Origin: Sclerodactyla briareus
Lineage: Eukaryota > Echinodermata > Holothuroidea > Dendrochirotida > Sclerodactylidae
DNA length: 64,000 bases
Assembly: GCA_026419785.1 (NCBI GenBank)
Contig: JAODTK010000111.1
Location: forward strand, 155,059-219,058
Direction: 5' to 3'
The notes under the pieces are model-generated. The model saw nothing but the letters and a program-made list of their open reading frames with translations. It made no database searches and was not told where the DNA came from. Numbering within the stretch: the first letter of the stretch is position 1; each line of letters starts with the position of its first letter. Shown one piece after another: positions 17,870 through 63,232 of the stretch. The position numbers and the translations under genes were made by a program.

Positions 17870-19213
17870 TCTGATCAGACCAACCATTCTGGACTTATCG
17901 TGTGTAAAAGGTTTTCAGACTTGACCTCTGGTGACATCAGATGACCTAGACCGACCCAAACAATAGGGTCATGTACTATCATGGGAAGCACACGATACCA
18001 AGTATGAGCTTATCCATCCGGCGGGGTCGAGTATCGTGTTACAAACCAAATTGGCCAAAATATCAACTTTTAACAAATTTTCTCATTTTTGACCAAAAAT
18101 TCACTCCGACCTCTACCAAAAACAATAGCGTTCTTGCTCCCAAAAAGGCAAAGATACACACCAAATTTCAACCTGATCAGACCAACCATTCTGGACTTAT
18201 CGTGTTCACAAGGTTCAGACTTTGACTTCTGGTGCCTAGAGACCTCTGACCTTGACCCAAAAACAAAGGGGTTCATTTGTACTCATCATGGGGAAACACA
18301 CAGACCAAATATGCGCTTCATCCATCCAGGCGGGGGTCGCGATATTCCTGTTTACAAGCCAAAATTGGCCAAAATATCAACTTTTCACCAAATTTTTCTA
18401 TTTTGACCAAATTCACTCCCGACCTCTACCAAAAACAATAGGGTTCCTGTGCTCCCCAAAAAAAGGCTATACACCAACTTCAAACTGATCAGACCAACCC
18501 ATTTCTGGATATGTTTTACAAGGTTTTCGACTTTGACCTCTAGTGACCGCAAATGGACCTTTGACGGGACCTCAAAACAATAGGGTTCATTGGACTCATA
18601 TGAGGAACACACATACCAAGTATGAGCTTCACCCATCCAAGCGGGTCGTTTATCATGTTGAAAAGCCAAAATTGACCCAAAATACGACTTTTCAACAAAA
18701 TTTTCTATCTTGACCAAAATTCGACCCCGACCTATACCTAAAAACAAAGGGTTCCTGTGCTCCCCATAAGAAAGCTACACACCACATTTCAACCCCCTGA
18801 TAGACCAACCATTATGGACATATCGTGTTTACAAGGTTTTTCAGACTTTGACCTTTGCGTGACCTCAGATGACCTCTGACATGACCCAAAACAATAGGGT
18901 TCAGTACTTCATCATTGGGGAACAACCATACCAAAGTAATGAGCTTCATCCATCCAGCGGGCGTCGAGTTATCGTGTTTACAAGCCAAAATTGGCCAAAA
19001 TATCAACTTTAACAAATTTTATTCGTGACCACAATTCACTCCCGAACTCCACCAAAAAAAACAATACGGTTCCTGTGCTCCCAATAAGAAAGCTTACACA
19101 AAAATTTCAACCGATCAGACCAACCCTCTTGGACTTATCGTGTTCACAAGGTTTTTCAGACTGTGACCTCTGGTGCCCTAAGATGACCTCTGAACCTGAC
19201 CCAAAACAATAGG
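17870..19213 (+). repeat. ~313-bp dimeric satellite array (left part of copy B)
   Basis: About 4.3 head-to-tail monomers. Consensus landmarks in order are TTATCGTGTTCACAAGG, a TGACCT-rich block, AAAACAATAGGGTTCATG, CATGGGGAACACACATACC, AAGTATGAGCTTCATCC, GGGTCGAGTTATCGTG, TTTACAAGCCAAAATTGGCC, TTTTTGACCAAAATTCACTC, AAAAACAATAGGGTTCC, TAAGAAAGCTACACACC and ACCAACCATTCTGGA. Copies differ mainly by one-base deletions. The array ends abruptly at 19213 in AATAGGGTT, where GC-rich DNA begins. Confidence 0.9.
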
Positions 19214-21645
19214 GTTTTCCTCCGGCCCGGACGGGGGGTGTTACGGCCACCCGCGCCGAAACCGGCACCGACAAAGTCGGCTGTGCGAGACAGCCGAAGC
19301 CGAATAGCGGGCTTTAGGATCACCCGGCCCAAGTCTAGGACCGGGATGATCCAGAGCTCCATGCCCGGGGGAGGTGAAGCAGGCTCCACCGGGCTAACAC
19401 AACCTGGCCCCCGAAGGGCCCGAGGATCGAAGTCTTCTTGGTTACGACCTTCTCCTTCTTCTCCCGGGGTCGTCCTCGAGGACCGAAGACGATGACTTCC
19501 CACTCTGGCGACGATCCCCTGCCTTCTTCACTTCCGACGCTGATGTCCGCACCGGGGGCTTACGGGCTCGGCGCACAAAGACATACCCCTACCTCTCGAG
19601 TCTGCCAGCATCGGGACAACTTGATGAGTTCCGCCTACAAACGGCACACCTCTCCATACCTGAGAGAAAGCCCGCTGAGGAAGTCTTTACCTCCATGAAC
19701 CCTCGTTCACTGACATAAAAAATCAATACAAGGCAACGTAGGCATACAACGACACAACGGCGAACCAAAGTACAAGCGTCCTCCCCCCCTCCCCACCCCC
19801 CTCCCCCCCCGCCCCTTTTCTCAACTAGTAGAAGGGCGCTGCGGAGTCTCTACGTTCATGAACCTCGCTCATTGACTAGAGTCAATACTTGGTAAAGTAG
19901 CATACATAAGTTACACATTGAAATATCGGCGATCAGAGGTGTGAGCATCCCATTTCTCCATAACTGGGAGAGTGGTAAGTGGTATGCCATAATTAATCAT
20001 CAACATTGACGATCGGAGATTGAAACGGCCCACTTCTCCCTAAGCTGCTCTCTCGAGGCGGCTCTCCCGAGCTGAGGGCCGAGGTTCGGCTCTCCCGGCT
20101 CTCCGGAGCCGTAGTCCGACTCTTCCGGACCTCCTTATCGGCTGTTCTCCAGACGCTCTCACGAGCCGCGTGAGTCGCTCTCCCGTCTCTCCGAGGCCGT
20201 GGGCTAACTCTTCGGACCTCCTAATCGCTCTCCGATACGGCCCTCCCGAGCCGAGGGGAGTCTGCTCTTCCCGTTCTCCGGAGCCGTGGGCCGACTCTTC
20301 CTGGACCTCCTATCGCTCGCCGAACGGCTCTCCCGAGTCCGCGGGAGCGTCTCTCCCGCTCTCCGGATTCCGTGGCCGACCTTCCGGACCTTCTTATCGG
20401 CTCTCCGGGACGGCGCTCACGAGCCGAGGGAGAGTGGGCTTTCTCGGCCGCGGAGGGAGCCGTGGGCTAACGACTTCCGGACCTCCGTATCGGCTCTCCG
20501 AGAGAGGCTCTCCGAGCCGAGGGAGTCGGCTCTCCGGGCTCTCCGGAGCCGTGGGCCGGACTCTTTCGGCCCTTCGGATCGACTCTTCCGCCGTGGGGCC
20601 GGACTCTTCCAGAACCTGATCGTCTATCCGAAGCTGGGGCCGAAGCTGCGACCATGATCGACGCCCCAGAGCCGTGGGTCGAAGCCTCCCGGACCTATCA
20701 GATCTCCGCCGTGGATTCGGCTTTCCAGCCTTCCAGATATCTTCGGAGTAAAGTTATTGATCGGCCATGGCCCCCCGACTCCTCTGCGGTCTTCCGAAGA
20801 CACGCCGGCGATACTGAGTCGCGGTTCAGCATCCTAGCCGCGGACTGGTATTCCGGCAATTCGCCGGATCGTGTGGGTACCGTTACACCAGACCCGCGTA
20901 ACCAGTCAGCTTTCCCCCAGCGGTTAAAACGACTCGGAGTGGACGCTCTCCGGAGCCTCGCACTGGCCCCCCACAGAGCCGTTGACCGAATTCCCGTTCC
21001 GGCTCTCCGGAGCGCGGGTCCGTTCTCTTCCGGCCATCCTGGAGCCTGATCAGCTCTGCGAGGATGAGGGTCGGCTCCCCGTTTTCTCCAGAACCGTCAG
21101 TCGGCTCTCCGGAACCGTACGGCTTTCAAGAACAAGGGGCAATATATCAGGGCCGGTGGCTGCCCGGTTCGCGGCGAGCGGCACGTTGCCGGGGCTGTTA
21201 GCACGCTCGCAACGAGGCCGGGGCATACCCTTACACGGCACGGATGGGAACTCGCTGAAGTAGTGCAGTCACGAGAAACTGTCCCGCACCGTCGACCACC
21301 ATTTCCATGTCCAACCGTGATGGAACGGGCCCACCGCCAAAGTGGCCCTGTGTAGTCTGGTGCAGGGTCCATTTGGGGGGTAAGTTGACTATATGAAATA
21401 GACCTTCAACAAAACTTCACTGGTTTGTGAATCGGTGAAGTCATGAATACTTACCCCATATGGACACTACCGCCAAACCGTCCCCACTTTCGGGTCCATC
21501 ACGGGCGTCCCCTCTGTGGAATTTGGGGCCTTCGCCCCCAATTCTTGGACGCCTTCGCCTGGAAAAAAAGAGAGGGCGATGGTTGGTGGCCAACCCGGAC
21601 TTTGTGTTATTGCACGATGTTCAATGGCGCGGGGGTGGGGTGCTG
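19214..21645. other. 2.4-kb GC-rich block interrupting the satellite
   Basis: The base composition switches sharply to GC-rich, CpG-rich DNA at AATAGGGTT|TTCCTCCGG and returns to satellite at about 21646 (CTCATCTGGGGAACAAACATACC region). Since the satellite reads AATAGGGTTCATGTACTCATCATGGGG at this point, the block sits inside one monomer with roughly 10 bases lost. Within it are an approximately 150-bp duplicated segment (ATGAACC..CGTTCACTGAC near 19696 and ATGAACCTCGCTCATTGAC near 19857), a C-rich tract (19785-19815) and the minisatellite at 20040-21120. The tail (21380-21640) has no similarity I recognise. A ribosomal-DNA intergenic-spacer fragment is one possible origin. No protein is supported; the ORFs here are artefacts of high GC. 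Confidence 0.6.
20040..21120 (+). repeat. GC-rich hairpin-forming minisatellite
   Basis: Degenerate tandem units of roughly 80-90 bp are built from GGCTCTCCCGAGCCGAGGG, TCGGCTCTCCGG, AGCCGTGGGCCGACTCTTC and CGGACCTCCTATCGG. The paired words GGCTC/GAGCC and CTCCGGAG make each unit strongly self-complementary. Units become more irregular after 20620. Confidence 0.7.
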
Positions 21646-23330
21646 TCTCATCTGGGGAACAAACATACCATGTATGAGCTCGTCCATCCGGCGGGGTCGG
21701 TATCGTGTTTACCAGACAAAATGCCAAAAATATCAACTTTTCACCAAATGTCTTTTTGACCAAATCACGCCCAGACCTCTACCAAAAACAATAGGTTCCT
21801 GTGCTCCCTAAAAGGGAAAGCTACACACCAAATTTCAACTGATCAGACCGAATATTCTGGACTTATCGGGTTACAAGGTTTTTTCAGACTTTGGCATATG
21901 GCGACCTCAGAGGACCTCTTTCCCTGACCCCAAAACAATAGGGTTCTATGTATCATCATGGGGAACACACCTCCAAGTATGAGCTTAATCCAACCGGCGG
22001 TGGTCGAGTATCGTGTTTACAAGCCAAAATTGGCCAAAATATCAACTTTTCACAAATTTTCTATTTTTGACCAAAATTCACTCCCGACACCTCTACCAAA
22101 AACAATAGGGTTCCTGTTGTCCCCAAAAGAAAGCGACACACCAAATTTCACCTGATCAAACCAACCATTCTGGTTTATCGGTGTTACAGGTGTTAGACTT
22201 GACCTCTAGTGACTCAGATGCCTCTGAACAAATTAGGGTTCATGTACTATTAATGGGGACCAACAATACAACACCATAGTATGAGCTCACCCATCCAAGC
22301 GGGGTCGAGTTAGCATGTTCACAAGCCGAAATTGACCATAAAATATCAACTTCACAAATTTTATATTTTTGACCAAAATTCACCTAGAACCTATACAAAA
22401 CGATAGGGTTCCGGTGCTCCCCCATAAGAAAGCTACAACCAAATTTCAACTGATCAGACAAACCATTCTGGACTTATCGTGTTTACAGTTTTCAGACTGT
22501 GACCTCTGGTGACCTCAGATGACCTATGCCTGACCCCAAAACAATAGGGTTCATGACCTCAATATGGGGAACACACGTACCAAGTATAAGCTTCACCCAT
22601 CCACGCGGGGTCGAGTTACCGTGTTTACAAGCCAAATTGGACAACGATATCAACTGTTCACAAATTTTCTATTTTTGACCCAAAAAGAACTCCCGACCTC
22701 ACCTAAAACATCAGGGTTCCTGTGCTTCCCCATAAGAAAGCTAAACACCAAATTCAACCTGATCAGACCACCATTCTGGACTTAGTCGTGTTCACAAGGG
22801 TTTCAGAACTTTGACCTCTGGTGACCTCAGATGACCAAAATCCACCCCAAAAAATAGGGTTCATGTACTCATAATGGGGGGGAACACAATACCAAGTTGG
22901 TTATCCATCCGGGCGGGTTTGAGTTATCGTGTTTACAGCAAAAATTGGCCAAAATATAAATTTTCAAATTTCTATTTTTGACCCAAAAAATTCATCCGAC
23001 CTCTACAAAAACATAGGGTTCCTGTGCTCCCCAAAAGAAGTACACACCAAATTTCGAACTGATCAACCAAACCATTCTGGACTTATCGTGTACAAGGTTT
23101 TCAGACTTTGAACTCTGGTGACCTATGACCTGACCCCAAAACAATAGGGTTATGTACTCATCATGGGGAACACACCATTTTTACCAAGTAGGAGCCGGAA
23201 CCCTACTCGGACCTGATCAAGTATCGTGTTTTACAAGCTGGGCGTCAACACACGCACCACACACATACACACGCACACCCACAAACGTGACTGCATAGAA
23301 TTCTCCGACTTCGTCAAGGGAACAAGAACA
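21646..23330 (+). repeat. ~313-bp satellite array (right part of copy B) and element right end
   Basis: About five monomers resume in the same orientation and phase as the 17.9-19.2 kb array. The array ends after ACAAGC at 23236 in GGCGTCAACACACGC, a (CA)n-rich tract, GACTGCATAGAATTC and GACTTCGTCAAGGGAAC. This right-end module is shared with the ends at 49.6, 62.5 and 63.2 kb. The example at 22500-22525 holds three intact TGACCT words spaced by 4 and 4. Confidence 0.9.
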
Positions 23331-45389: not shown

Positions 45390-46510
45390 GATACGCATAA
45401 TAACCCCAATTCAATTGTATCTAACTCATACGGATGCAAACGAAGTTGAAAATGTTGCTTTATCATCTTTGTCAAATGGGAAAGTCCCAGTATTCTATCA
45501 GATTCCTCTGATATTTTCAAAGTTAGTGTCCACTCTATATCTCCGTTATTGTACACCGTTTTAATCGGGGGGGGGGGGGGGGGGGGGGGGGTCTGTAAAT
45601 GTTCTCAACAAGCATAATATTTTATCAAATACTCAGTATGGCTTCTGTGAGAAACATGCAACATCTATGGCTCTTGGTAACGTTGTTGATTCCATTACAT
45701 CTGCTATTAGAATGGAGAATTGCAATTGGAATATTTCTTGATCTGTCGAAGCATTTGATACAGTCGATCTAACATTTTGTTCAATAATTATATACACTGG
45801 GCCTCAGATGTAAAATACATGATTGGTTTCAAAATTATTTGAAGAGCCCTTACCGTTTTGTCGCATTACTTATACACCTCTACTTCCCAAAACATTGTCT
45901 GTGGGGCTCCGCAGGGTTCCACTTTGAGACCACTCCTCTTCATAATCTATATGAATGACATTAATGCAACTTTCACAAAATTAAAATTTACAATGTTTGC
46001 TGATGACACAACTATCCTCTATAACTATAGAGACTGACACAGGGATCAAGTGTGGTTAATGAGGAACTTGTTGCCGTCAATAAATGGTCTGCAGAACAAA
46101 TGTTTGTTGAATATGGTAAAACAATTCATTTTTGTCCATAACGTTGTAGAGCGGTTCACAGGTGAAATAAAGAAATAATAAATTAAATAAGGAAAGTTAC
46201 TGAAACGAAAATTTTGAATCACTATACATGAAATTTGAAGTGGATACCCATATCAAAATGTGTGCAATAAGGTTTCAACATCACTAGGTATAATAAAAAC
46301 AACTTAGTCATGGACTTCCAAAAAACAAATTTTATTACATAATAAAATTTAAATAATATAAAAATTAATAATTAATTTATAAAAATATCAGTTGTAGAAA
46401 CTTTCTTCTGGTCTCCATTCACTCCATGTTTATAAGTTCTCCGTTTGGACACAATATATACTGTAGGCTTTTGTTCACTGGAGTGATGAATAAATTGAAT
46501 TGAATGAAAT
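45390..46510 (+). pseudogene. LINE reverse-transcriptase fossil with GAATT-type tail
   Basis: The plus strand carries ILSNTQYGFCEKHATSMALG (RT motif QYGFR), NVVDSITSAIRMEN, an SVEAFDTVD word (SKAFDTVDH), CGAPQGSTLRPLLFIIYMND (GVPQGSxLGPLLF.IYIND) and KLKFTMFADDTTILYN with the catalytic FADD. This is the RT core in correct order, with several frame breaks. The 3' end near 46480-46505 has AATAAATTGAATTGAATGAA, a short-repeat tail typical of CR1/Jockey-type elements. A 25-base G run (45567-45591) interrupts the 5' part. It lies in a transglutaminase intron, opposite to the gene. Confidence 0.8.
45567..45591 (+). repeat. 25-base poly-G tract
   Basis: An uninterrupted G run inside the LINE fossil, replacing or inserted into the sequence between the NYRPIS-like and QYGF regions. 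Confidence 0.95.
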
Positions 46511-46863
46511 GGTCATGTAAGAGATTTCTCCAATGGTGCGAAAAAAGGATATAAAAACCTCACACCCCAAATTTGAGGTTCTGGCTAGAATACGGCGAGT
46601 TATTATAATTCACTGTTTGAGAGAGTGGGGGGGGGGGGGGAGGGGGGGTGATGCAAAGGCTGCCCATAAACTGGGCATAACATAGAGAGGACCATGTTTT
46701 TTTTTTGTATCTGTGAACGTCTATATTTTGTTTGTATACAAGTGTTTTCAAAAGTACAGGTTATACAAAACTAGGAGTGGCTGCCATAATATAATAAACA
46801 ATACCAGAGGTCATATTTGAGAGGTGATATTTACATGACTACGGTACTTTAACATAAACATAC

Positions 46864-46973
46864 CTTCAGGAAACTTGTATGAGTCTGTGATGTCGACCCT
46901 TCTGTAACTGCCAACAGCTTTGGTGCTGAGTTCACCCGAGCTGTCAGACTCGAGATGAAATACAGTTGGTTGG
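46864..46973 (-). CDS. Transglutaminase KAVGS exon
   Basis: The acceptor CTGTCCTGAG and donor CCTGAAG|GTATGT bound the exon. It encodes SDSSGELSTKAVGSYRRVDI followed by TDSYKFPEG. The family consensus here is (I/L)STKAVGxxxRxDITxxYKYPEGS, the segment just after the catalytic core leading into the beta-barrels, so identification is firm. The frame is open. The first few codons (VFHLE) precede it without a recognisable family match, as is usual for this variable linker. It is separated from the GPASV exon by 3.1 kb that contains a complete satellite-transposon. Confidence 0.8.
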
Positions 46974-47720
46974 CTCAGGACAGAAAACCGAATCAACACA
47001 AATGTGTCAAGGCATTTATGCAACAAATTCTCAAACGCTGCAGGGTATGAAAATACAACAGGAAAAAATATCTGTGGGTGGATATATTACATTCGAATTG
47101 TGGTTTAAAAATAGCCTGCCCATGTGGTAATTGTGAGCTATAGTGACAATTGAGGGAGAACAGACCACTTATGGTAATTATGTTCAAAATTATGGACTAA
47201 AGTAGACCGATCTAGCAAGTTTCATAAACTACTAAGTTTGAATAATTTTATGCAAAGTGAGACTATTCATTAGATATTTTCGTGGCAATAAGCTCAAACA
47301 ATGAAATACATGAAATAGGGTAATTACACTACTTAATCATTGACTCTCAGATCAAAATCTAATCAGATCACCAACTATGATACCGGTAAAAAGTGTCATC
47401 AAAATTAAGGTTAGTGTTTTAAGAAATTGTGACATGAACACACCATACAACATGACAAAGTGATAGTTTAGTTCTTTCCTGAATTACCCTAGTAGTCCTC
47501 TAATCATAAGTGATTTTCACCTGTTCAGATAGTATTTTCAATTTGAGACCACACACAAAAAATTTAGTAAATCGCTTACAGTTGACCACAGGAATTCTGC
47601 TAATGGAACAAGAGGTGAACGTACACACATACACACCCTCCACACACAAAAGGTTCAATTTGTTGGTTTTTAAAATTAGTTTCATGATTGCAAGAAAAAA
47701 ACAGGAGAAAGTCATGAGGC

Positions 47721-50008: not shown

Positions 50009-50115
50009 TTTTTTGTAAGGAGGAATGCCGGTGAAAACGTGTAGATTAACACTACTCAGGAGTCCTATTAGTGTGTCTAACATTCTGTGACACCAGCCTA
50101 CAGCCGTGGGTTTAC

Positions 50116-50240
50116 CTTCTACGGTTGTCATACACCTTCAGTAGACCTTCTCTGCATTGACCTCGGCAAAAGCAAACTTGGTATCATAGTTCAGGTATAC
50201 ATGGCCCTGTTTGATAGCAGTGACAGAGGCTGGACCCATC
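50116..50240 (-). CDS. Transglutaminase core exon (GPASV..FAEVNAE)
   Basis: The exon lies between the acceptor GTTCTTTCAG and the donor AGAAG|GTAAAC (125 bases). It encodes [20 protein letters not shown] then [13 protein letters not shown], the segment following the catalytic His exon (family: GPASVxAIKxGxVxxxYDxxFxFAEVNADxVxW). After KVY the sequence is TGA where the family has Trp (TGG); with one base restored it would continue KVYDNRR to the donor. The apparent stop is therefore a one-base deletion, either a real inactivating mutation or a read error. Splice sites are intact. Confidence 0.85.
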
Positions 50241-50249
50241 CTGAAAGAA

Positions 50250-52370
50250 CCTGAAAACAGAAGAGAGGTGCAGGTGATTTGATAATGAACCTCATTGCAT
50301 CAAAACCTAAATCTATGTCCTAATCATATGTATAAACAGCATCACGAAATGCATCATGTTTCAGGGGGCTTGCAATGTGATTCTCTGATTTGTTATAACA
50401 AGAAATATGATGCATATCGAACAAAAACGCCCCCACAGAGGCTGGGCAAGGTGCATTTAACTCTCCAATAACCTTGGAGCACACAAACCCTGTCTATACA
50501 TGTTTTGATGCCAATCAGTTATGGAGAAGTTTGGAAGAAGCCTGCAAGGAATCGTCAACTGTATGGGCCTTAAAAGATCTTTTACAACACTGTTTAGGCT
50601 ATCCCATATATGCTATACACCTGTGTACAAAAAAATGGAGGTTTGTTTTGACACAGCCTCTACAAAGGAAACCCAGGATGTTTATGAACAAATGTGAAAA
50701 TAGAAACAAAAACAAAGTATGCAAAAGGCTCCTCCATTTAAGATGAAGTCATTTGGTACTCAAACGTGTTTGTTATTATGACCTTGCAACAAAAAGTGGT
50801 TGCACCGTTGCAATGAATGCTGGATGAAGAAAAAAACTGAGGATACATTATTCAGGGGAGAGGACAGGATAGATACAGTGAAAGGAGCATTCAGCCTTGC
50901 AGAGGGAAGAACCTGGGGAGGGTTTGCAGGTAGGAGGAAGGGAAGAGAAATTCAGGTTCAACTGCTAACAATTTGCAGTTATACTGCCACTGGTAAATGC
51001 TACACAAAATTGGTGATTGCTATGCATAACCAATTTGTGTAGCTTTTTTGGCTATGCTAAAAGTTGTACCTTGAATTGGGATCGGGAGAATTGGGTATGG
51101 TATGAAAACGGAAAGTATCACAAATTAAAAGGATATGCCAAAGTAGTCAACTATGTATCATTACAGTCAGTAATATTAGGACGTGGACTTGACATCACGT
51201 GGAAATTGATACACTGCCATTCCCCAATTTTTTTTCTTCTTCCTCACTAGATTTGATAACATTCACTATTGTGTTGAATACTACCATTCTTTCCTTCCCC
51301 CCAACGAATCATTTTCAAACTATTTTCGTAATGGGAAAAACATAACATGTGCAATAATCATTCCCGAAATCGTCAAGTTGGCACAATTGGAACATTCACA
51401 ACAACAACACACATTTTGCTACCATACAACTCTTGGCAAGCTCTGGTGTTCTTCACAAGTTCACAATGCACATACCTCAGTGAAATAACTGACAATCCAA
51501 CACACATTTTGTTGAAACTTCAGGAACACAAATTTTGTTCAGAAACGAAACCTATATGAATACACTTTTTCTGGGATTTCTGGGCTTTGTTTTGGGGTAT
51601 GTCACTTGTATTAGAACATTCGACTGAACCACACATATCCCCAGGCCCTCAGAAAAGTTCCTGATTCACTATCTGGGCCCCCGGAAGGTGTTTTTGGGAA
51701 TACACCCCTGTCCTCGATATAATCTGAGCTAATTGAAAGGATGATTGATAGGCAGTTCAAACACGAGCTCATTATAAATCAGAGTTCTCCATGGTCAACT
51801 TCTGTCCCCAATCCCCATGCTTTAAAAGGATGTGGATCAATAGCAAGAGCCAGCATGGCACAGGATCAAAATAAAAGGGGTCCAAATTCTGTCTTCTTGA
51901 AAATGTTTGTGAAAAGAAACTCTGAATGTGACTTATAGCTTACTTGACAAATGGGAGTCACACTGACACAAGTCATACGGAAGTTACTACTTATTGGTCC
52001 ATTGGGAAGCATATAATTTGATAGTATTGCCCTGAAAGCAGATTTTTTTTTACCTGGGTGGTACATTCACTTGTCTGAGGGCTTGATTCAATCATTTGGA
52101 AATAACCACTGGGTGGAACACGTTAACTTCATAGGGCGCCCCATAAGGGTTGGGATAGTAGATAAGGCCCCCTCCCCCCCTTCATCTCCACCCCCACATG
52201 TAAGATTACACCAAATACCTTGCATTTCAACGTGTCAGCAAGCACAAATAAAAATAAGGCTAAATTAATCCAGAAGTCCTTGTCTTTCTGAAACAGATAT
52301 TAGTCTAAACAGTATGGTTCAGAGTAGGTTTGTGCAACAGATTGAAAAATATTGTCATGGGAGCACCTCA
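50250..52370. other. Transglutaminase intron
   Basis: No exon or recognisable transposon found. Short ORFs here have no family features. A small exon bridging the DATPQE-like end and the RMGPAS start would be expected but was not seen. Confidence 0.4.
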
Positions 52371-52371
52371 C

Positions 52372-52471
52372 TCGACTTGTTTCTGTGTAGTGCCTTCAAC
52401 AGCTTGCCAGCCCCCATAGCCATCAGGGAGGTCAGGACGAGACATCCAGGGCAAGTTCCAGAATGATAGTC
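52372..52471 (-). CDS. Transglutaminase catalytic-His exon
   Basis: The acceptor CTTCCCCACAG and donor CGA|GTGAGG enclose 100 bases. The core reads [20 protein letters not shown] then TQKQVE, the family motif WMxRPDLPxGYxGWQxxDxTPQE. At the 5' end the bases GACTATCATTCTGGAAC can be aligned with the catalytic His motif (NYHVWN) if single bases are missing; in one frame D-Y-H is visible and in the other FWN. The catalytic Asp/His geometry cannot be verified because of these slips. It joins the upstream exon (ends GTC TG|) in phase if one A is restored. Splice signals are clean. Confidence 0.85.
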
Positions 52472-53130: not shown

Positions 53131-53394
53131 ATCGGTAATGTGAAACTCAATATTAGATAAACCCAAATACAACCTATACCCACTAGCATTATCCATTTAT
53201 GATAGACAGTTCTGTTTCAATTTTACTCTGATTTAACTGACAGTGTCTGCTACAGGTTCTTTGTTGACACTGGATGGCACTCTATTTCCCAGTGCTCAGC
53301 AGAGCAGCATGAACAATGGTCTATGGTCCTCGGATTCAGATGCTCATCTTCATTGACTACATGGCAACCTCTTTTATGCAAACTTTTCGTCCTT

Positions 53395-55095
53395 CTACTG
53401 ACTGGAGTACTCACCAGACAAAATTATCGTTATGTCAGACATTGGAATGTTGTTCTACCGACTGGGAGTACCAAACCAGAGTACAGACACTTCGTTGTTC
53501 ATGTCGGCTATTGGCATGTGGGCTAATGACTGGAGTACTCCCAGACACATCATTGTTCATGCAGCTATCGGCATGTGTTCTACGACTGGAGAGTACTCAC
53601 CAGCCACGTATCCATTGTCATTCAGCGATTGGCCATGGTGTTTACTGACCTGTAGTACTCACTAGTGGTATATTCATGAAGGTCAGCTATCTGTATGTGT
53701 TCAACTGACTGGAGTACTCACAAGATGCTATCATCATTCATCAGCTATCTGTATGTGTTCAACTGACTGGAGTACTCCCCAGATTGCTATTGGCTTATGT
53801 TCTACTGACGGAGTAACTCACCAGACACTATCATCAATCAGGTCAGATATCAGCATGTGTTCAACTGATGAGTACTCACCAGAGCGATCATCGTTATGTC
53901 AGATATCAGCTGTGTTCAACTGACTGGAGTACTCACCAGACACCATCATCGTTCATATCATCTATTGCTGGTTCTACTGACGGAGTACTCACCAGACACT
54001 ATCATCGTTCATGTCAGCTATTACGCATGTGTTCTACTGACTGGAGTAATCCTCACCAGACATATCATCGTTCAGTCAGCTATTAGCATGTTTTATACTG
54101 ACTGGAGTACTCTCCAGACGCTATCATCGTTCATGTCAGCATCGGCATGTGTTATACGAATGGAGTAATCACAAGACGCTATATCATTCAGTCAGCTATC
54201 CGATGTGTTCAACGACTGGAGTACTACCAGCCGAGATCATCGTTCAGCAGCTATAAAGCACGTGTTATACTGACTGGAGTACACCAGACACTTCATCAAT
54301 CATGTCAGCTATTAGCTATGTGTCTACTGGATGGAGTACTCACCAGACACTATCAACGTTCATGTCAGCTATTACAGCATGTTTTCTACTGACTGGAGTA
54401 CTCTCCAGACGCTATCATCGTTCATGTCGTATCGGCATGGTTACACTGACTTGGAGTATTAACAGATCGCTATATCGTCATTGTCAGCTATCGGCCATGT
54501 GTTCTACTGACTGGAAGTACTCACCAGACGCTATCCATTCATGTCAGCTATCGGCATGTGTTCCACTGACGCGAGTACTTACCAGACGCTATCACGTTCA
54601 GCAGCTATCTGCATGTGTTGCAACGACTGGAGGACTCACCAGACGACTATCATCATTCATGTCAGCTATCTGTATGTGTTCAACTGACTGGAGTACTCAC
54701 AAGACGTATCATCGTTAAGTCAGCTATCGGCATTTTCTACTGACTGGAGTACTCACCAGACACTATCATCGTTCATTTCAGCTATTTGCATGTGTTCCAC
54801 TGACTGGGGTACTCACCAGACACGATACGTTCAGGTCGGCTCTCGGATGTGTTCTACTGACTCGGTACTACAAGACGCTATCATCGTACATGTCAGCTAT
54901 CTGTATGTGTTCAACTGACTGGAGTACTCACCAGACGCTATCATCGTTCATGATAGCTATCTGTATGTGTTCAACTGACTGGAGTACTCACAAGAGCTAT
55001 CAATCGTCATGTCGGCTATCGGCATGTGTTCGACTGGACTGGAGTACTCACCAGACACTATCAACGTTCATGTCAGCTATTGGCATGTTTTCTTC
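53395..55095 (-). repeat. 60-bp minisatellite made of duplicated exon/5' splice-site units
   Basis: About 28 head-to-tail copies of a 60-bp unit, with many one-base indels. Plus-strand landmarks are GACTGGAGTACTCACCAGAC, GCTATCATCGTTCATGTCAG and CTATCGGCATGTGTTCTACT. On the minus strand each unit reads AACACATGCCGATAGCTGAC, ATGAACGATGATAGCGTCTG|GTGAGTACTCCAGTC. This equals the last ~44 bases of the transglutaminase exon at 55052-55190 (codons for HMPIADMNVDSVW) plus its GTGAGT donor and ~16 intron bases. The authentic exon end is the first unit in the transcribed direction. In the coding frame each unit places TGA directly after the Trp codon, across the donor. Confidence 0.9.
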
Positions 55096-55190
55096 ATCAC
55101 AGTGGTAGTCCAGAGTGAGGTTCCCATCCGTGTCGTGCGCAGATTCAAAGTTTGTAAGGTGCCTCGACGGGATCCCCAATGCTCGCATCA
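55052..55190 (-). CDS. Transglutaminase core exon (RALGIPSR..SAHDTDGN)
   Basis: A clean 139-base exon between the acceptor TTTCTTGTAACAG and the donor GTCTG|GTGAGT. It encodes MRALGIPSRHLTNFESAHDT then DGNLTLDYHCDEENMPIADM and NVDSVW. The family consensus is TVMRALGIPSRxVTNFxSAHDTDxNLTxDxxxDxxxxPxxxxxxDSIWNFHVW, located between the catalytic Cys and His, and includes the conserved calcium-site HDTD region. No frameshift occurs here, unlike the flanking exons. In phase, the upstream exon supplies the first base of the first codon (C|TG, Leu). The 3' end is the seed of the 60-bp array that fills the adjacent intron. Confidence 0.92.
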
Positions 55191-56374: not shown

Positions 56375-56563
56375 GAGTAGTGAAGACGCAACCGAACACC
56401 CAGCCCTGCCGCACGTCCATCCTTGACTGGCTTGACTGGCTTCCCCTGACTCCATGTACTCTTTAAGAATGGCATGGACCCTGTCCAGTCGGGTAGGTCC
56501 TCCATCAGAGAAAGCCATCCGTCTCAATTACCATAGAGCAAACGCATCATGTCACGCTGTACT
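56375..56563 (-). CDS. Transglutaminase catalytic-Cys exon (disrupted)
   Basis: The acceptor CCTCTTCCCAG and the weak donor CTC|GTAGTT bound about 189 bases. Recognisable pieces, in several frames, are LLYGN(stop)DG (family VLxGNWxG), FSDGGPT, WTGSM, AILKEYMESG, KPVK (written twice through a 9-10 base duplication) and WVFGCVFTT. The family order is G.W.G.Y.DG..P..WTGS.AIL.EY...G.PV.YGQCWVFxGVxTT, so homology is certain. The YGQC codons are garbled: read back from WVF the Cys codon position is GGC (Gly), while an alternative alignment keeps TGC with an 8-base insertion. At least four frame changes and a Trp-to-stop (TGA) are present. Confidence 0.8.
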
Positions 56564-61224: not shown

Positions 61225-62516
61225 TTTAGTGATTCCTTGACTCTTTCTGACAACCTACCGCCAGACACAAGGACAATTTGGAGATTGCAAACACCAGCTC
61301 AATATGGGCGACATAACGTCCGACAAATTTCTCCCAATTTTTCCGCAACCAATCTGATATGGCTCCTATATCTCTTGACAAGGAAGCTACACATTAAATT
61401 CAGTTTTCAGCCTCTGAACTCTGGTGACCTCAATGACTCTGACATGACCCCAAAACAATAGGGTTCATGGGGGAACTCGATCATACCAAGGTGTGAGCTT
61501 CAATCATCCGTGTGGGGTCGAGTTAATCGTTTTAACAGCCCAAATTGGCCAGAACTTTTACTTTCCACAAATTTTCTATTCGTGACCAAAATCCACCCCC
61601 TACCTACCCAAAACAATAGGGTTCCTGTACCCCTAATAAGAAAGCGAACCAAAATCCAACCGGATCAGACAACCCATTCTGGTCTTATCGTGTTTTTACA
61701 CATTTTTCCACCTTTGACCTTTTATGAACCTCTGACCTGACCCCAAAACAATAGGGTTTCAATGTACTCCTCATGGGAACCCACTACCAAGTAATGAGCT
61801 TCATCCATCCCAGGGTCCCGGGTGGGTCGAGTATCGGTGTTTACAAACCAAATTTGCCAAATATTGGACTTTTCACAATTTTCTATTGTGACCAAAAATC
61901 ACCCCTGACCTGAACCAAAAACATAGGGTTCCTGACTCCCCATAAGGAAGCTACCCACAAATTTCAACCGGATCAGACAGACACTTCTGGACTTATCGTG
62001 TTTGACAAGGTTTTCAGCCTTTGACCTGGTCTGACGCTGACCTTGATCCCCAAACAATAGGGTTTCCATGACCTCATCATGGGATACCCATACCAAGTAT
62101 GAGCTTCTCCATCCAGGTGGGGTCCGAGTATCGTGTTTACAAACCCGAATTTACCAAAATATTGACTTCACAAATTTTCCTATTTTTGACCACACATCAC
62201 CCCTGACCTTTAACCAAAAACAATAGGGTTCCTGTACTCCCCCATAAGGAATCTACACACTGAATTTCAACGGATCAGACCACCATTCTACTTATTCGTG
62301 TTTACAAGGTGTTTCAAACTTTGCCCTCTTGTGACTCTCTGACCTGACCCCAAACAATTAGGGTTTCATGTACTCATCATGGGGGAACCACACACCAAGT
62401 ATGAGCTCATCCATCCAGGTGGGGTTGAGTTATCCGTGTTTACAAGCCAGCGTTTACATACACACCACACACACTGTCATGACTGGATAGAGTCCTCTGA
62501 CTTGGTCCAAGGAATC
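61225..62516 (+). mobile_element. Satellite-filled TIR element (copy E)
   Basis: The left end TTTAGTGATTCCTTGACTC at 61225 is followed by GGAGATTGCAAACACCAGCT, CGACATAACGTCCGACAAAT and CTCCCAATTTTTCC, then about 3.5 monomers of the satellite. A right-end module is at 62450-62516: GCCAGCGTTTACATACACAC, GTCATGACTGG, CCTCTGACTTGGTCCAAGGA and ATC. A second array and right end follow immediately, so this copy is compound. Confidence 0.75.
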
Positions 62517-63232
62517 AAAAACAATAGGTTCCCTGTACTCCCCAAAAGAAAGTTACACTAACTTTCAAACATTATAAGACCAACTATTCTGGGAACTATC
62601 GTGTTACAAGGTTTTGACCTCCGTTGCCCTCAGATGGACCTCTGACCTGACCCCAAACAAGGGTTTCAGTACTCTCATGGAAACACACATACCAAGTATG
62701 AGCTTCATCCCTCCGGGTTGGGGTTGAGTTATCTTTTTCCAAAGCCAAAATTGGCCAAAATATTGACTTTTCACCATTGTTTTCTATTTTCCAGAATTCA
62801 CCCCCGACCTGAACCAAAAACAATATTGTTCCTGTCTCTCCATGAGGCAGCTGCTATGCACCAAATTTCAATCTGATCGGAACAACCAGTTCTGACTTAT
62901 CGTGTTCACAAGGTTTTCAGACTTTGACCTCTGTTGACCTTAGATTTTTTGACCTCTGACCTGACCCAAAACAATAGGGTCAGTTGTTACATTACAAGGT
63001 TTTCAAGACTTTGACCTCTGTTGCTCTCTGACCTGACCCTAAGAACAATAGGGTTCATGTACTCATCATGGGGGAACACCCATCAGTATAGCGTCATCCA
63101 TCCAGGTGGGGTCAGTTATCGTGTTTACGAGCCAGCGTTACATACACACACCAACACACATACATAAATCCATACACACTGTCATGACTGGAACTGCTAG
63201 AATTCCTCTGACTTCGTCAAGGAATAAACTAG
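62517..63232 (+). mobile_element. Second satellite array and right terminus joined to copy E
   Basis: Directly after the first right end the sequence resumes in mid-monomer (AACAATAGGTTCCCTGTACT) and runs about two monomers to a second right end with ACATACACACACC, GTCATGACTGG, AATTCCTCTGACTTCGTCAA and GGAATAAACTA (63232). The site 62950-62962 is a perfect direct repeat TGACCT-C-TGACCT. Unequal exchange or nested insertion would explain two right ends behind one left end. Confidence 0.7.

Follow-up and report, generated by a model that had tools for sequence, protein, structure and literature searches.

A mirage-type minisatellite of repeated splice donors at an exon-intron boundary of a transglutaminase gene in Sclerodactyla briareus

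Mirages are minisatellite-like tandem duplications of exon-intron boundaries that have been described in lancelets, both in the Adh3 and globin genes (PMC3087553) and in the troponin C and PGBD5 genes (PMC3902484). The units are given as 10-160 bp, the globin hosts include BflGb6 and BflGb9, and the units of BflGb6 are 81-100 % identical (PMC3087553, PMC3902484). The arrays are described as unstable in length, and splicing is reported to be regular according to Adh3 data and globin RT-PCR (PMC3087553) and accurate (PMC3902484), PGBD5 having 60-bp and 108-bp repeats on its splice sites. A minisatellite with multiple splice donors is also present in the human IFI6 (6-16) gene, two of the downstream repeat donors being used to yield several mRNA species (Turri, Cuin and Porter 1995, as excerpted in PMC4526556). 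Finally, the Rogers model, as cited in PMC3087553, attributes intron gain to internal tandem duplication across AG/GT proto-splice sites. The array described here clearly adds a further case to the mirages, an uncommon type of repeat that had been reported before, and lies outside the described host group; the first-pass annotation knew of no case like it, a statement overtaken by the lancelet mirages and the human minisatellite already in print. No echinoderm mirage was found in print in the open-licence literature.

The 64-kb stretch of DNA analysed (the window) comes from a 219-kb contig, one of 3171 that together make up a genome of 319,486,128 bases. Recognisable exon pieces of a transglutaminase gene are spread over its minus strand from approximately 61.0 kb down to 30.6 kb and, because the contig stops where the window ends, the 5' part of the gene is missing. 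Exon B (55052-55190, minus strand; 139 nt) reads ...MRALGIPSR...DSVW, its translation being MRALGIPSRHLTNFESAHDTDGNLTLDYHCDEENMPIADMNVDSVW, and is bounded by an acceptor AG at 55192-55191 and by the donor GTGAGT, which runs from 55051 to 55046 in the context CTG/GTGAGT. The exon was identified as transglutaminase by a PDB sequence match (E value 9.5e-10); the Pfam Transglut_core model scored only 20 bits on it, below the cut-off of 23, and among the ten window pieces searched against Pfam, six returned nothing and three gave weak, unrelated matches (S4, ScdA_N and Cas9_Topo). Exon A (56376-56541; limits approximate), covering the catalytic-Cys region, lies upstream, and exons C (52380-52471; acceptor AG/GACTATC at 52471, 3' end approximate), D (50114-50250; approximate) and E (46862-46975; 5' end approximate) follow downstream, all on the minus strand.

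In a phylogenetic tree, the window transglutaminase falls inside the echinoderms, together with sea urchins and Apostichopus (support 0.90; echinoderms 0.80; Ambulacraria 0.99). An alignment of 186 positions gives it an identity of 0.70 with Apostichopus and of 0.61-0.66 with the remaining named echinoderm members of the clade. With the K-like hemichordate sequences that form the sister clade the value is 0.62-0.63, and with Branchiostoma 0.55-0.56. Sequences from Holothuria (two, 0.55-0.57) and Glandiceps (one, 0.56) sit elsewhere in the tree and are likely paralogues. Since the host gene groups with echinoderm and not lancelet transglutaminases, the mirage class extends beyond lancelets.

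The tandem array occupies 53393-55089 on the minus strand and comprises 29 units, namely a junction unit (55089-55030) that contains the authentic boundary between exon B and its intron, and 28 copies (mean length 58.4) that continue within the intron as far as 53393. The count of full units comes from a wrap-around alignment over 55093-53393, with two 2-base fragments at the array ends excluded, and bears out the first-pass annotation, which had proposed ~28 tandem 60-bp units derived from a transglutaminase exon end and its donor. The division of the unit given there, ~44 exon and ~16 intron bases, needed revision, as the 60-base consensus consists of 38 exon and 22 intron bases with AGAA at its flanks. 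The intron between exons B and C is 2580 nt long, and 1659 nt of it belong to the array. The exon-derived part of the consensus is identical to exon bases 55089-55052 at 34/38 positions (score 59), whereas the best score elsewhere in the window was 24 and the best of 1000 shuffles 27, a clear excess of identity in the unit-to-exon alignment that had been proposed as a check. The 60 exon bases directly upstream of this template are unlike the unit (score 10; shuffles, mean 12.3, maximum 22), so the edge of the array on the exon side is sharp. Among nine splice junctions of the gene tested for nearby recurrence, only that of exon B recurred (score 73 versus a null maximum of 23); none of the other eight, some of them at approximate positions, rose above the null as a further mirage would.

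Copy lengths as assembled range from 42 to 68 bases, with exactly 60 in 5/28 and a multiple of three in 14/28; phase is therefore not maintained throughout the array, as had been supposed from the divisibility of 60 by three. Identity to the consensus lies between 0.63 and 0.95 (n=28) and falls with distance from the exon (Spearman -0.43, P 0.024); the greater divergence of the distal copies could reflect less turnover or poor assembly there. Adjacent units share more with one another (lag 1, P 0.018 uncorrected), and the repeat finder also returned periods of 119 and 291 for the array. Higher-order blocks of several units were considered and rejected: lag 5 gave P 0.026 on its own but P 0.20 with substitutions only, and the strongest of the 14 lags reached P 0.21 when judged family-wise.

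The duplicated 60 bp are flanked by a 4-bp direct repeat, the exon-side AGAA being at 55090-55093 (...GATGA-AGAA-AACATG...) and the distal AGAA, at the intron edge of the array, at 53393-53396 (...CAGT-AGAA-GGACG...), both on the minus strand. The segment that starts immediately after the first AGAA and closes with the second measures exactly 60 bases, 38 of them exon and 22 intron. The presence of AGAA at both edges suggests tandem duplication at a 4-bp microhomology followed by expansion; we infer this from an agreement over four bases, which could arise by chance. When the stretch 53395-55190 was compared with its own genome, one match was listed, which was itself, and exon B gave four, one at its own position and three inside the array, with no second haplotype of the exon among the matches listed; this search scores the best candidates only and passes over very common words. 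No match to the array was found elsewhere in the 64-kb window. With array and exon listed only at this locus, birth in place is most likely and insertion is unsupported, in keeping with the earlier proposal that the authentic boundary was the first unit and was multiplied where it stands. A copy away from transglutaminase, which had been named as evidence to the contrary, did not appear among the own-genome matches listed. Since the locus itself was the one genome match listed, we rejected insertion of a repeat and a dispersed satellite as origins; three arrays of ~300-bp units in the window, by contrast, do match elsewhere in it. The consensus in the exon frame still encodes NMPIADMNDDSVW (read by eye) and, as this peptide end is conserved in the transglutaminase family, the array derives from the exon, not the exon from the array.

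Like the lancelet mirages, this array consists of tandem copies of a boundary-spanning unit, apparently born in place, with the authentic boundary at one end and the rest intronic; it is specific to its locus among the genome matches listed, and many of its copies, though not every one, carry splice signals. The 60-bp unit recalls that of the PGBD5 mirage. It differs in its host, which is not a cephalochordate, although such a host is the described range of mirages and not strictly defining, and in its 29 units, against the 6 and 3 of the BflGb6 haplotypes. Its edges still show the AGAA pair, unlike those of the lancelet globin mirages, the mechanism of which is called unclear in PMC3087553. 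As in the Rogers model, tandem duplication has spanned a splice site; unlike in intron gain, no new intron is evident and the array lies within an existing one. The human IFI6 minisatellite, with a 12-bp unit, likewise supplies several donors at an exon end, but its repeat donors are used and yield several mRNAs, whereas a downstream donor here would lead to an immediate stop.

All 13 window occurrences of the motif CTGGTGAGT (0.47 expected) fall within the array, the authentic donor among them. Beyond that donor, a pattern search finds 12 extra CTGGTGAGT (CTG/GTGAGT) and 16 extra GTGAGT, in agreement with the earlier remark that many units keep the site intact. Scored by aligned columns, exact and without insertions, CTGGTGAGT is present in 11/28 copies and GTGAGT in 15/28, and GT at +1/+2 is retained in 24/28. 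With the 5' end of U1, 10/28 copies equal the authentic site in pairing energy (-10.6 kcal/mol) and one more reaches -10.5. In the donor columns (-3 to +6) there are 21 changes, compared with 27.6 expected for nine random non-CpG columns (P 0.21), and selection on the donors was rejected because this deficit is small and not significant, the columns being no better conserved than other non-CpG columns to a significant degree. Substitutions per site amount to 0.28 in CpG columns and to about 0.06 in the others, and this CpG decay, together with the pattern of donor change, is as expected if the copies have aged neutrally. No structured RNA matched in the window at Rfam gathering cut-offs, two sub-threshold matches lying in the array (19.3 bits versus 56 and 15.2 versus 50), and the junction shows no unusual RNA fold (z +0.67).

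An in-frame TGA at 55048-55050 (minus strand) is read at once after the Trp codon if the authentic donor is passed over, as had been foreseen. Nonsense-mediated decay (NMD) usually requires a stop more than 50-55 nt before a junction. The distance from this TGA to the junction is 56 nt for the first downstream GTGAGT (54991) and greater for every further one, so that, at 56 nt or more, NMD is predicted for any downstream GTGAGT; this and the loss of downstream catalytic residues from use of an array donor are expected by rule and not from observation.

Taken together, these data make it quite probable that the array is a mirage-type minisatellite of an exon-intron boundary that arose in place via AGAA and is near-neutral, contributing splicing noise only. 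A 60-bp segment would have been duplicated through microhomology between an AGAA 42 to 39 bases before the exon end and an AGAA 19 to 22 bases into the intron, slippage or unequal exchange would have carried it to 29 units, and CpG decay and indels would have aged the copies. The spliceosome would mostly use the authentic, upstream-most donor, producing the normal 139-nt exon and removing the array with the intron. Should a downstream donor be used now and then, the resulting W-stop transcripts would be NMD targets and their protein would end before the catalytic His and Asp; if rare, such transcripts would amount to noise and not to a switch. We favour near-neutrality because of the unit composition, the AGAA edges, the 34/38 identity, the sole genome listing, the lack of significant donor constraint and the CpG decay, and also because lancelet mirages that duplicate splice sites reportedly leave splicing undisturbed (PMC3087553 and PMC3902484). 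Counting against it, the donor columns are somewhat less changed than average (21 versus 27.6), the U1 pairing of 10/28 copies makes donor competition physically possible, the distal copies are further from the consensus, and human IFI6, by analogy, uses two downstream repeat donors. The first-pass annotation had left the choice between a decoy or brake, an NMD switch and a neutral expansion; the last fits best, and the others are without positive evidence, the donor columns being unremarkable in their conservation.

A second explanation, which we consider a genuine though lesser possibility, is that the repeat sits in a decaying or non-catalytic transglutaminase copy, in which relaxed selection would let a boundary repeat expand free of cost. 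Exon C encodes EGTTQK in place of DxTPQE, in which D, T, P, Q and E are each invariant in 28/28 aligned relatives picked from the proteins listed by sequence searches, the Asp, Pro and Glu reading Glu, Thr and Lys. In the Cys-His-Asp triad, the residues of which are likewise each invariant in 28/28 relatives, Asp reads Glu and frame breaks fall in the His and Cys stretches. The breaks occur in exons A, C and D (one in D), and exon A has a disrupted GQCW catalytic-Cys stretch with several small breaks, mostly in homopolymers, that may be assembly error or real decay. The branch leading to the window sequence, at 0.40, is also long when compared with 0.04-0.17 for the rest of its echinoderm clade. 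On account of these substitutions, the disrupted Cys stretch, the breaks and the long branch, the copy may be relaxed, decaying or non-catalytic. However, exon B is open across all 139 nt and well conserved, the donors and acceptors inspected in the gene keep their splice signals, and several of the one-base breaks, being in short homopolymers, are probably long-read or assembly errors; the exon C substitutions are harder to dismiss in this way.

The frame breaks in the neighbouring exons, the copy lengths of 42 to 68 bases and the 77 deleted positions in 28 copies could also indicate that copy number and the many variants are products of noise in the long-read assembly, the real array being shorter or cleaner. 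We find this improbable, as the array contains many different shared and private variants with CpG-biased substitutions, its distal edge is defined and bears AGAA, and homopolymer columns, in contrast to what is seen for the exon breaks, have no excess of deletions (0.039 per site versus 0.047).

It is similarly doubtful that the array is an unproductive-splicing switch, in which the row of donors would compete under SR/hnRNP control and NMD would destroy the products, tuning enzyme level. The 12 and 16 extra donor motifs, the immediate TGA, the 56 nt to the junction at 54991, beyond the usual rule, and the U1 pairing of 10/28 copies would all suit such a switch, but the donor columns lack significant constraint, exons extended up to about 1.8 kb would be poorly defined, and the copy may not be an active enzyme. 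From other genes, the use of repeat donors in human IFI6 (excerpt in PMC4526556) speaks for the switch, whereas the lancelet mirages are reported to be silent (PMC3087553 and PMC3902484). A length-tunable brake, with more than ten near-identical donors competing and copy number setting the NMD-bound share and the transglutaminase level, is very unlikely; were it true, the array would be a natural donor ladder showing directly how position alone decides donor choice.

The array should not be read as evidence for a novel regulatory system; it extends a repeat class known from lancelets to another deuterostome lineage. Its readable AGAA birth edges and about 29 copies suggest, as a hypothesis, how such arrays begin, which the globin paper (PMC3087553) leaves open. 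It also provides a natural experiment on donor choice, in which many near-identical 5' splice sites share their exonic context and distance is the main difference between them; should splicing prove clean, the donor would have to be chosen by position or by exon definition.

Other repeats were observed in the window. The tandem arrays at 17871-19216, 21653-23172 and 61482-62940 have units of 302-315 bp and about 40 window matches each outside themselves, and look like one dispersed satellite family, while a GC-rich 87-bp tandem array at 20047-20610 has no match elsewhere in the window. Within a transglutaminase intron, reverse-transcriptase-like reading frame pieces at 45565-46037 (plus strand) contain QYGF and FADD-like motifs (by eye) and probably represent a decayed LINE.
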